A stretch of 64,000 nucleotides of DNA from Lachnospiraceae bacterium (GTDB lineage: Bacteria; Bacillota; Clostridia; Lachnospirales; Lachnospiraceae), in the NCBI GenBank assembly GCA_024696945.1, contig JAILGF010000067.1, positions 1-64,000 of the forward strand, written 5' to 3'. Shown here piece after piece: positions 12,787 to 15,497 of this stretch. The number at the start of each line of letters is the position of its first letter. The stretch's first letter is position 1. The notes under the pieces were generated by a model. It was not told the DNA's origin and ran no database searches. It worked only from the letters and a program-made list of their open reading frames with translations. A program made the translations under genes and the position numbers.

Positions 12787-13650
12787 ATGGAAAACGAGAA
12801 CGTATTAACAAACAGTCAAAGAGCTGCAGTGCTGGTACATGCACTTCCTTATATTCAGAAGTACAACAACAAAATCGTAGTTGTTAAGTACGGCGGAAAT
12901 GCTATGATTAATGAGGACCTGAAGAATGCGGTTATGGGAGATATCGTACTTCTTAACCTCATTGGTATGAAGGTTGTACTTGTACATGGTGGTGGTCCTG
13001 AAATTACCGAAACACTTAATGCTGTTGGCAAAAAGACAGAGTTTGTTAATGGTCTGAGAGTAACAGACGCTGAAACTGCTGAGATTGCCATGATGGTTTT
13101 GGCTGGTAAGATCAATAAGAATCTTGTAAATCTTATTAACAAGTTCGGTGCAAAGGCACTCGGACTCTGCGGTCTTGATTCCCATCTTATCAGAGCTGAA
13201 AAGCTTGATGAAAAGCTTGGCTTCGTTGGAAAGATAACTCATATCAATGAAGATCCTATTTTAGACGTACTGAATATGGGTTATATTCCTGTAATTGCTA
13301 CCGTTGGTTATGATGATGACGGAAATATCTATAATATAAATGCAGACACAGCTGCTGCAAGAATCGCAGGAAAGTTAAGAGCTGAGGCTCTGATTTCCAT
13401 GACTGATATTGACGGTATTTTAAGAGATAAAGATGATCCTTCTTCACTTATACATGAGATCAATGCAAGCGAAGCTCCGCAGCTCATGAGAGAAGGCATC
13501 GTATCCGGCGGTATGATTCCTAAGGTTGAGTGCTGTATAGAAGCTATCAGACGTGGTGTTAAGAAAGTATTTATCATAAATGGCAAGATACCTCATTCGA
13601 TTTTGATTGAAACAATGACTGATGAAGGTATCGGAACGATGTTTGTATGA
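12787..13650 (+). CDS. argB: Acetylglutamate kinase
   Basis: ArgB phosphorylates N-acetylglutamate, the committed step and the usual point of arginine feedback in cyclic pathways. Motifs are VVKYGGNAM (ATP phosphate site), LVHGGGPEI (substrate), and SMTDIDGIL and GGMIPKVE near the C-terminus. At 287 aa it is a normal length. An N-terminal helix (NSQRAAVLVHALPYIQ) of the type found in arginine-sensitive hexameric enzymes is present, so feedback by arginine is likely. The RBS is GCGAGGAA. A DUF559 cassette begins 3 bases after its stop. Confidence 0.95.
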   Translation: MENENVLTNSQRAAVLVHALPYIQKYNNKIVVVKYGGNAMINEDLKNAVMGDIVLLNLIGMKVVLVHGGGPEITETLNAVGKKTEFVNGLRVTDAETAEIAMMVLAGKINKNLVNLINKFGAKALGLCGLDSHLIRAEKLDEKLGFVGKITHINEDPILDVLNMGYIPVIATVGYDDDGNIYNINADTAAARIAGKLRAEALISMTDIDGILRDKDDPSSLIHEINASEAPQLMREGIVSGGMIPKVECCIEAIRRGVKKVFIINGKIPHSILIETMTDEGIGTMFV

Positions 13651-13653
13651 TTA

Positions 13654-13699
13654 AGCCTTCCCCTTGAGGGGAAGGTGCCCCGAAGGGGCGGATGAGGTG
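13654..13699 (+). repeat. Left inverted end of DUF559 cassette (two hairpins)
   Basis: Hairpin 1 is CCTTCCCC (13656-13663), loop TTGA, GGGGAAGG (13668-13675). Hairpin 2 is GCCCC (13677-13681), loop GAA, GGGGC (13685-13689). GGATGAGGTG (13690-13699) then leads to the start codon at 13703. The order and sequence mirror the right end at 14039-14085. No T-run follows, so it is not a simple terminator. Confidence 0.8.
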
Positions 13700-13702
13700 T
13701 AA

Positions 13703-14062
13703 ATGATAAAGAATCATAATCATATGTTAACGCCATATTCTCAGAAACTACGTAGGGAAATGACAAAAGAAGAAAAGCATTTATGGTTTGACTGTCTAAA
13801 ATCATTACCGATTACAATAAATCGTCAAAAAGTTATTGGAAAATATATTGTAGATTTTTATTGTGCTAAAGTAAAAACAGTTATTGAATTAGATGGTTCT
13901 CAACATTTTGAAAAGGATGGCAAAGAAAAAGATATTGAGAGAGATGAATTTTTAAAATCTCAAGGTATTAAAGTGTTAAGATATTCAAATTATGATGTAA
14001 ATAATAATTTTGAGACTGTTTGTCAAGATATATACAATCACCTCATCAGTCAGCTTCGCTGA
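13703..14062 (+). CDS. DUF559 endonuclease-like protein
   Basis: This 119-aa protein matches the DUF559 family, small restriction-endonuclease-fold proteins related to Vsr mismatch endonuclease. The typical pattern is LRREMTKEEKHLWFDCL, then IVDFYCAKVKTVIELDGSQH, then ERDEFLKSQGIKVLRYSN. The candidate metal-binding residues are Asp in VDFYC and Glu and Asp in IELDGSQH. The N-terminus is unusually close to the left hairpin end, and the last codons and the TGA lie in the right hairpin 2. Its AT-rich, foreign-looking unit interrupts an arginine biosynthesis operon, so a metabolic role is unlikely. Nuclease activity is predicted only from fold. Confidence 0.85.
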   Translation: MIKNHNHMLTPYSQKLRREMTKEEKHLWFDCLKSLPITINRQKVIGKYIVDFYCAKVKTVIELDGSQHFEKDGKEKDIERDEFLKSQGIKVLRYSNYDVNNNFETVCQDIYNHLISQLR

Positions 14063-14085
14063 CAGCTTCCCCTCAAGGGGAAGCT
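14039..14085 (+). repeat. Right inverted end of DUF559 cassette (two hairpins)
   Basis: CACCTCATCA (14039-14048) is followed by hairpin 2', GTCAGC-TTC-GCTGAC (14049-14063), and hairpin 1', AGCTTCCCC-TCAA-GGGGAAGCT (14064-14085). Read on the minus strand it follows the order of the left end. The DUF559 stop codon (14060-14062) falls inside hairpin 2'. Confidence 0.8.
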
Positions 14086-14114: not shown

Positions 14115-15497
14115 ATGGACATAAAGAGTAATGACAAAGAGTTCATTGCCAACACTTACGGGCGTTTTGACCTGGAACTCGTAAAGGGCAAGGGTTCTCT
14201 TTTATACGATGAGAATGATAAAGAATATATAGATTTAGGTACGGGAATTGCAGTAAATATATTTGGCGCAGGAGATGAAGAGTGGAAGCAGGCTGTTATT
14301 GATCAGCTTAATCTTATTCCCCATACATCAAATCTTTACTACAGCGTACCCCAGGTTAAGTTAGCAAAGCTCCTGTGTGAGAAAACCGGTATGAAGAAGG
14401 TATTTTTCGGTAATTCCGGTGCAGAAGCTAACGAGTGCATGATTAAGGTTATAAGGAAGTATGCATCTGACAAGTATGGTGATGAAAGAAACATCATTAT
14501 CACCCTAATAAACAGCTTCCACGGCAGGACAGTTACTACATTGTCAGCTACAGGTCAGGATGTATTCCATAAGAGTTTTGGTCCTTTTACAGGCGGCTTC
14601 CTTTATACCCCTGCAAATGATTTCGCAGCATTAAAAACTCTTTGTGAAGAAAACAAGGGCAAAGTAGCCGGTATCATGATGGAGCTTGTACAGGGTGAAG
14701 GCGGTGTTATAGCCCTTACACCGGACTTTGTAAAGAGTATTGAAGCATATTGTAAGGAAAATGATATACTTCTCGGAATAGATGAAGTACAGACAGGTAA
14801 CGGACGTACAGGTAAGCTTTATGCATTCATGAATTACGGTATTACTCCTGATGTAGTTTCTACCGCAAAGGGTGTGGCCGGTGGACTTCCTCTTGGGGCA
14901 TGTCTCATCGGAGATAAATGCAAGGATACACTTAATGCAGGCTCACATGGGTCAACATTTGGTGGAAACCCTGTGGTTACAGCCGGTGCTTATAACATTC
15001 TTTCAAGAGTTGATGATGCTCTACTTAACGGTGTTAAGGAAAAATCAAGGCTAATAATTGAAAAACTTACATACCTTAAGCTTGATGATGATATGAAGCC
15101 TGTCGGTTTTACGGCTGAAGGAATCGATGAAATTGCAAAGCTTCAGGACTGCAGGTCAGATCATGATGAAGATATAATTGAAACCGGTAAAACAGCAAAG
15201 ATTGTTCCTGATTTAAGAACTAAAGACGGGAAAACTGTTGAAGAAGTTATAAAGAATTATCAGTTTGGTATCTGGCCTTCATTCCGTAAAGGTATCGTAT
15301 CTGTTTCCGGTATGGGCTTAATGCTTGGTATTCAGACTGAGAAGGAAGCTAAGGCAATTGTTAATAAAGCAATTGAGAAAGGAACAATTGCTCTTACTGC
15401 AAAGACCAAGGTAAGACTTCTTCCGGCTTTGAACATCTCTAACGACTTACTTGAAAAAGGACTTGATACTATTCTTTCTGCTATCGAGGAAGTATAA
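14115..15497 (+). CDS. argD: Acetylornithine aminotransferase, with a C-terminal-half insertion
   Basis: ArgD is a PLP enzyme converting N-acetylglutamate semialdehyde to N-acetylornithine. Seen here are FFGNSGAEANE (phosphate site), NSFHGRTVTTLSATGQ, GIDEVQTGNGRTG, and VVSTAKGVAGGLPLG with the PLP lysine at about 252. The 460 aa exceed the usual 390-400. The surplus is a block at about 320-388, between IIEKLTYLK and VSGMGLMLGI, rich in Asp, Glu and Lys. The fold core on both sides is intact, so the enzyme is probably active. It follows the DUF559 cassette by 29 bases. Confidence 0.92.
   Translation: MDIKSNDKEFIANTYGRFDLELVKGKGSLLYDENDKEYIDLGTGIAVNIFGAGDEEWKQAVIDQLNLIPHTSNLYYSVPQVKLAKLLCEKTGMKKVFFGNSGAEANECMIKVIRKYASDKYGDERNIIITLINSFHGRTVTTLSATGQDVFHKSFGPFTGGFLYTPANDFAALKTLCEENKGKVAGIMMELVQGEGGVIALTPDFVKSIEAYCKENDILLGIDEVQTGNGRTGKLYAFMNYGITPDVVSTAKGVAGGLPLGACLIGDKCKDTLNAGSHGSTFGGNPVVTAGAYNILSRVDDALLNGVKEKSRLIIEKLTYLKLDDDMKPVGFTAEGIDEIAKLQDCRSDHDEDIIETGKTAKIVPDLRTKDGKTVEEVIKNYQFGIWPSFRKGIVSVSGMGLMLGIQTEKEAKAIVNKAIEKGTIALTAKTKVRLLPALNISNDLLEKGLDTILSAIEEV

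Follow-up and report, generated by a model that had tools for sequence, protein, structure and literature searches.

A DUF559 nuclease-like gene between mirrored double hairpins as the probable enzyme-bearing locus of a REP/REPIN-like repeat family

A 64,000-nucleotide stretch of a Lachnospiraceae genome (the window) carries a small gene of the DUF559 family between an AA_kinase gene, which ends at 13650, and an Aminotran_3 gene, which starts at 14115; the reading frames of both neighbors are intact. The neighbors are called argB and argD (the latter argD-like) after the initial annotation of this DNA, and these names are consistent with the two protein families. The DUF559 gene is enclosed by two ends, each consisting of two hairpins and a conserved motif, the head. 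The features are as follows:

13655..13676, plus strand: left hairpin 1, type A, G-CCTTCCCC-TTGA-GGGGAAGG-T, with the core CTTCCCCTTGAGGGGAAG at 13657-13674 (folding, pattern match)
13677..13689, plus strand: left hairpin 2, GCCCC-GAA-GGGGC, stem variable (folding; stem pairing across copies)
13690..13699, plus strand: left head GGATGAGGTG, type A, with G before GATGAGG (sequence, own-genome copies)
13703..14062, plus strand: DUF559 gene, 119 aa, predicted Vsr/I-Bth0305I-like PD-(D/E)XK nuclease (PF04480, E 2.6e-31; model; dN/dS)
14039..14047, minus strand: right head GATGAGGTG, plus-strand complement CACCTCATC (sequence)
14049..14063, minus strand: right hairpin 2, GTCAGC-GAA-GCTGAC (plus strand GTCAGC-TTC-GCTGAC), containing the stop codon of the gene (folding)
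14064..14085, minus strand: right hairpin 1, type B, AGCTTCCCC-TTGA-GGGGAAGCT, plus-strand CTTCCCCTCAAGGGGAAG at 14066-14083 (folding, pattern match)

The whole left end occupies 13655-13699 and the whole right end 14039-14085, and at each the order is hairpin 1, hairpin 2 and head, with the head on the inner side. The inverted arms of the two ends are 21 nt long and 95% complementary. Folding z-scores were -5.0 for the left end and -7.7 and -6.9 for the two strands of the right end, with 0 of 200 shuffles folding as well as either end in each case. Chance hairpins were rejected as an explanation. The hairpin-1 pattern matched twice in the window against 0.01 matches expected; the head by itself did not exceed chance there, with 2 matches where 0.36 were expected and 8 of 100 shuffles reaching 2. 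The mirrored double hairpins described in the initial annotation were thus borne out, as was its placement of a gene that starts close to the left end (13703, against 13699), has its stop codon (14060-14062) inside the right end, and stands between argB and argD with neither damaged. The ends are of two types: in type A (left) the outer pair of the hairpin-1 core is C...G and G precedes GATGAGG, and in type B (right) the outer pair is G...C and T precedes GATGAGG. In the window's two ends the conserved head is GATGAGGTG, the palindromes lack a GTAG (or GT[AG]G) tag, and hairpin 1 is not followed by a T-tract.

The window gene was assigned to DUF559 by profile (PF04480, E 2.6e-31), and Y1_Tnp was absent from the Pfam scan. 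A structural model predicted from 38 aligned proteins (37 from the related loci described below plus the window) had a mean pLDDT of 87.7. A Foldseek comparison of this model with the PDB returned 3hrl (E 6.5e-6), an endonuclease-like protein of Neisseria gonorrhoeae that also matched in sequence (E 1.3e-9), 3r3p (E 1.9e-5), the catalytic domain of the homing endonuclease I-Bth0305I, and, more weakly, Vsr (E 0.044). Six residues, E24, D51, E62, D64, H68 and D77, are invariant in the 38 proteins and may, by analogy with the VsrA residue list in the available text of PMC12907096, be equated with the Vsr active site. The profile, the fold and the conserved acidic and histidine residues all agree with a Vsr-like/DUF559 PD-(D/E)XK protein, and the product is predicted to be a Vsr/I-Bth0305I-like nuclease of this superfamily, as the earlier proposal of a relation to Vsr-type endonucleases had anticipated. 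Between the window gene and its counterpart in a related genome (G016), dN was ∼0.044 and dS ∼0.47, which indicates that the gene is subject to strong purifying selection.

The genome to which the window belongs (3.9 Mb, 232 contigs) contains 34 forward matches to hairpin 1 with at most 2 mismatches, the window's 2 and 32 further ones, against 2 and 7 matches for the reversed-pattern control. By eye, hairpin 2 and the head, or a head variant, follow hairpin 1 in all 34 except L027 and L032. Among 26 copies that were told apart by their flanks (a few may be near-duplicates), the linker base and the pre-head base were concordant in every one, giving 15 copies of type A and 11 of type B. The hairpin-2 stems of these 26 copies comprise 16 distinct sequences, yet 126 of 132 stem positions are paired, as compared with ∼60% when stems are exchanged between copies. 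Since the stems vary but stay paired, the sequence comparison suggests that hairpin 2 is recognized by shape and the rest of the repeat by sequence. Some own-genome copies form gene-less A+B doublets resembling REPINs; across all loci examined, viral-contig arrays included, 19 doublets with an inner distance of <250 nt were found, 18 of which combine A with B. DUF559 is represented in this genome by one full-length gene and one weak partial match.

Other palindromes were seen in association with the repeats. Hairpin 1 is interrupted by an extra small palindromic insert in L004, L038/L132 (the right end in G007), L056, L062, L065 and L073, as if another element targets the repeat; the inserted stretch contains CATCTCAACCACTGCGTGGT in G007, and a related sequence occurs in L004. 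A further palindrome, CAATCAGAGGGACGGTTCTCTGATTG, adjoins the repeat copy at L009 (own-genome contig C124).

A scan for relatives of the gene confirmed 224 encoding stretches, and the best 80 of these 224 were used, to which all counts out of 80 refer. The two flanks matched each other exactly in inverted orientation over 14 nt or more in 49 of the 80 loci and in 0 of 67 controls (flanks taken ∼1.2-1.5 kb off); the other 31 loci fell below this threshold. Direct flank matches of at least 14 nt occurred in 22 of the 80, a sign of repeat arrays. Packing was often tight: of the 25 loci where both ends could be typed, 15 have their first ATG at most 7 nt from the left head and 18 have their stop codon in the right end. 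The two relatives that share the argB-argD position (L050 and L051) were counted once with G016 and G007 at that junction, and entered the 80-locus tests as ordinary rows. Several other DUF559 loci have hairpin-and-head ends of a different sequence, and some have no visible ends. Among L101, L109 and L117, and likewise among L104, L111 and L113, similarity spans the unit and largely ends at or near its outer edges, and L109 and L117 also have some downstream sequence in common.

Head types were assigned at 50 of the 80 loci, with 22 classified as P1, 19 as P2 and 9 as neither. The initial annotation had reasoned that a mobile unit would be doubtful if DUF559 genes elsewhere lacked such ends; inverted flanks at 49 of the best 80 loci and a typed head at 41 of the 50 point the other way. 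When local copies were counted, P1 was present in 36 and P2 in 25 of these 50 DUF559-bearing genomes, at least one of them in 44, and neither in 6. When local copies were subtracted, P1 exceeded P2 elsewhere in 17 of the 19 decided P1-headed genomes (3 were undecided), and P2 exceeded P1 in 15 of the 19 P2-headed genomes. The local end type thus predicts the repeat type found elsewhere in the same genome (17:2 vs 4:15, p 4.7e-5, a value that is optimistic, as p-values here generally are, because the rows are related). On a protein tree of 41 rows, from which the 9 loci with neither head are omitted, the end-type label requires 2 changes, a number as low as which was reached in 0 of 500 shuffles; the one exception is a P1 row (L071) within the P2 group. 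Three of 81 proteins, under 95 aa, had been dropped, including L051, which is hence not in the tree. The P1 group draws its members from Lachnospiraceae, Oscillospiraceae, Christensenellaceae and one Anaerolineaceae assembly (Chloroflexota), going by the titles of their records, so the repeat type follows the protein and not the host.

Within the genus, the exact P1 pattern was found in 12 of 24 genomes (reversed controls 0), and a full DUF559 gene in 4 of the 24, all P1-positive (one-sided p 0.047). DUF559 was not detected in the other 8 of the 12 repeat-bearing genomes, including G006, which has a listed completeness of 100 and 31 copies of the repeat. Across 392 genomes of the order, P1 was present in 9, a full DUF559 gene (E < 1e-20) in 27 and both in 6, so that the gene accompanies 6 of 9 P1-positive and 21 of 383 P1-negative genomes; the one-sided p of 4.4e-6 is too small because the data are dependent, the six double-positive genomes, own genome included, all belonging to one family and four of them to one genus. 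Repeats with no DUF559 detected were found in the order genomes G204 (18 copies), G451 and G205 (2 each), and in G316, G244 and G467 the listed repeat coordinates flank a DUF559 gene on both sides. The hairpins are therefore not confined to the argB-argD locus, a restriction that the initial annotation had regarded as fatal to a mobile unit, given the 32 further own-genome matches and their occurrence in half of the genus genomes.

Sixteen further DUF559 loci were drawn from phage records (2 of 4) and plasmid-collection records (14 of 38). An inverted flank match of at least 14 nt was present in 8 of the 16 and in 0 of 15 controls; the positives were four Deinococcus loci, one each from Sinorhizobium, Sphingomonas and the cyanobacterium Pseudanabaena, where several copies lie on both sides, and one fecal phage record. 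Plasmid-borne DUF559 genes (L209, L210, L213, L214, L216, L218, L219, L221) have hpa, paa or suf genes around them, or a BREX PglX or DUF1156 gene nearby. In E. coli, a 41-bp repeat beside the DUF559 gene ycjD was found in 5093 of 5426 genomes, at a median of 3 places each, and at ycjD itself it stands on one side only. In 3361 of the 5426 genomes, 80% or more of the 951-base ycjD query is covered at one place; in three genomes below 80% (L225-L227, compared with L223) multidrug efflux genes lie beside sapF in the sapF-fabI interval and ycjD is absent from the stretch. In the ypfG-tkt interval (L228-L234), the ycjD-type repeat occurs in L228 and L229 (KE48 and one other strain), and the five other fetched strains have a sequence there that we take to be a classical REP. 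Neither interval yielded a clean empty site among the fetched strains. At least 120 stretches of IMG/VR viral contigs match P1 (L235-L354), some as arrays (L246, L281); their source may be a prophage, a phage or a bacterial contig that was assigned wrongly. The viral contigs gave no comparison pairs, with 0 matches for two flank patterns and 0 relatives for a protein query; an alignment query gave 22 relatives.

The unit is present between argB and argD in its own genome (G000), G016 and G007, where the gene has an in-frame stop, and absent from that junction in G003 (14 bp between the genes), G013 (124 bp), G002 (127 bp) and G011 (147 bp). It is also absent in G001 (L133), which has 242 bp of other repeated GC-rich hairpins instead. 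The gene-bearing unit at argB-argD looks vertically inherited. The empty junctions sought by the initial annotation thus exist in the sense that relatives lack the unit, but a base-exact empty site was not found among these comparisons, as intergenic divergence hides the junctions.

For three solo repeats on own-genome contig C170, stretches from six relatives served as the comparison. The head and hairpin 1 are both absent from the matching stretches of G016, G007 and G013. Two of the three sites are occupied in one relative: at the first, G006 holds other copies of the repeat family, and at the second, G012 has a type B copy (L178, 4992-5036) where the own genome has a type A copy (L161), as if, to judge by the sequences, the site had been hit twice independently. 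These comparisons indicate that sites have been gained or lost within the genus and that some were occupied independently. In one alignable case, a solo repeat of G022 compared with G000 (a match of ∼83% identity), CTCAGTAA lies beyond the repeat and the related GTCAATAA before it, a possible 8-nt duplication in a single case. Over 50 units, however, the mean common run at the two edges was 3.28 against 3.18 (sd 0.13) in shuffled pairs, so the short target duplications suggested in the initial annotation do not rise above shuffled expectation; a DDE transposon or MITE was rejected, as no fixed-length target duplication appeared over these units. The outer edges are A-rich: the first flanking base is A in 36 of 50 cases on the left and in 34 of 50 on the right. 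The near-copies L101 and L109, on different contigs of one assembly, were considered as a recent move and ruled out, since their synonymous distance of 0.74 marks them as old; a mixed assembly is another possible source of the pair.

The minimal mobile cassette proposed in the initial annotation is thus partly supported: the hairpins are dispersed, but movement of gene and ends together is not supported, since the unit at argB-argD is common to three relatives, no target duplication was found over the 50 units, and L101/L109 are old. The gene-less repeats, as in RAYT systems, seem to be what spreads.

We consider it probable that a REP/REPIN-like family has its enzyme-bearing master locus here, in the DUF559 gene and its ends. 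Such a system would be a functional counterpart of RAYT and REP, with a Vsr-like nuclease in place of the Y1 HUH enzyme. On sequence grounds the partnership between DUF559 and the two-hairpin repeats is well supported; the enzyme's putative cutting of the ends is likely, and its candidate role in spreading the repeats is plausible. We infer both mobility and catalysis from these patterns. The enzyme would recognize hairpin 1 and the head through their sequence and hairpin 2 through its shape, and would nick an end while the DNA there is single-stranded or extruded. Host replication or repair would then place the released A...B unit, as a rule a gene-less doublet, in A/T-rich sites by copying or rejoining it, and the gene-bearing unit would move rarely. 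Host functions are invoked because nucleases of this kind are not known to join DNA.

Another enzyme, a Y1 transposase or a factor of some other kind, might instead spread the repeats, with DUF559 a passenger often caught between two copies. The many repeat-bearing genomes without DUF559 and the three Y1 transposase matches in the own genome would fit such an arrangement, but we judge it unlikely: the three Y1 loci have no head and weak hairpin-1 matches only (3 substitutions allowed; ∼1.5 kb on each side), and a passenger would account neither for the joint change of protein clade and end type, nor for the close fit of the gene, often to a few bases, between both ends, nor for the recurrence of inverted flanks in other phyla. 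Two of the Y1 matches (L048 on C211 and L049 on C57) have inverted repeats of a different kind nearby (ATGGGGTCAGACCCCA; TGGGGACGGTTCT), so the own genome may host a classical Y1-linked repeat family as well.

It is less likely still that DUF559 is a cellular hairpin-processing, repair or defense nuclease and the hairpins are regulatory elements or substrates, neither being mobile. Strong purifying selection and the common argB-argD position in three genomes are consistent with a cellular function, as is VsrA of Caulobacter, a DUF559-domain protein described in the available text of PMC12907096 as a predicted endonuclease of mismatch repair that is required for an SOS response. Against such a role, copies are dispersed at non-homologous sites, several are absent at the matching sites of relatives, and A+B doublets occur without a gene. 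A homing-endonuclease-like element, which would cleave the empty allele of one site and be copied in by repair, is very improbable even with I-Bth0305I among the closest solved folds and argB-argD occupied in three related genomes, as the repeats lie at many unrelated sites that have the A-rich edge alone in common; the copies are dispersed, and no single conserved insertion site was found. Ordinary terminator or mRNA-stability hairpins flanking a small gene by chance were rejected as the least likely reading: stable hairpins do adjoin genes, but here hairpin 1 has no T-tract in the window, the sequence-specific, mirrored, two-type ends recur across genomes, and both the inverted flanks at 49 of the best 80 of 224 loci and an end type that follows the protein tree speak against it.

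Bacteria commonly carry short palindromic repeats, among which at least one large class is without a known dedicated enzyme, according to the available text of PMC3733652. A consistent partnership with DUF559 would give a role both to such repeats and to a Pfam domain of "unknown function", and would make the origin of the repeats experimentally testable. More tentatively, DUF559 proteins could be the missing enzymes of short palindromic repeats bacteria-wide (Clostridia, Deinococcus, cyanobacteria, Proteobacteria), spreading them without a transposase: the PD-(D/E)XK nuclease would nick two hairpin ends and host replication or repair would insert the copy. If a nuclease does mobilize repeats with host help only, the route would be distinct from those of HUH, DDE, serine and tyrosine enzymes, and the gene-bearing form, at ∼430 bp, would rank among the smallest enzyme-encoding mobile units.

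No report linking DUF559 to such repeats was found in the openly licensed literature, which is weak evidence of absence. IS200/IS605 elements have hairpin ends, a very small enzyme and no target duplication. The DUF559 units resemble them in all three respects; they differ in their nuclease, which is unrelated, the gene having no Y1 match in the Pfam scan. Homing enzymes act at one site, whereas the DUF559-linked repeats are found at many unrelated sites; the likeness to I-Bth0305I, itself Vsr-like, lies in the catalytic-domain fold of the predicted model. Vsr and the Vsr-like DUF559 proteins (VsrA of Caulobacter, E. coli YcjD, 3hrl) share the family or the fold; the proposal for VsrA concerns mismatch repair, and the available text of PMC12907096 mentions no repeat partner. 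The CGTC-tagged REPs, a large class for which no dedicated transposase has been found according to the available text of PMC3733652, are likewise REPs without a known transposase, with a different sequence tag.

The closest parallel is RAYT (TnpA-REP) with REP and REPIN, together termed a REPtron, and the analogy drawn in the initial annotation fits: each repeat type goes with a single full-length enzyme gene that lies between inverted copies of the repeat, further copies being scattered through the genome. Many of these carry no gene, some form inverted doublets separated by a short spacer (19, of which 18 are A+B), and the enzyme clade matches the repeat type. The available texts of PMC3116915, PMC6006769 and PMC3733652 describe these same features for RAYT/REP, along with repeats in genomes that lack the enzyme. 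According to what is available of PMC6006769, REPs occur in genomes without the enzyme, and some E. coli strains have had their REPtron locus replaced; both resemble the DUF559 case. Unlike in RAYT/REP, the ends of the DUF559 unit each have two hairpins, a conserved inner head, no GTAG and two end types that are paired, and the enzyme is a predicted PD-(D/E)XK nuclease in place of a Y1 HUH transposase. As this defining Y1 enzyme was looked for and the partner proved to be DUF559 by Pfam, with a Vsr-like predicted fold, the system is not a member of RAYT/REP; we conclude that it is RAYT/REP-like and built on an unrelated nuclease.
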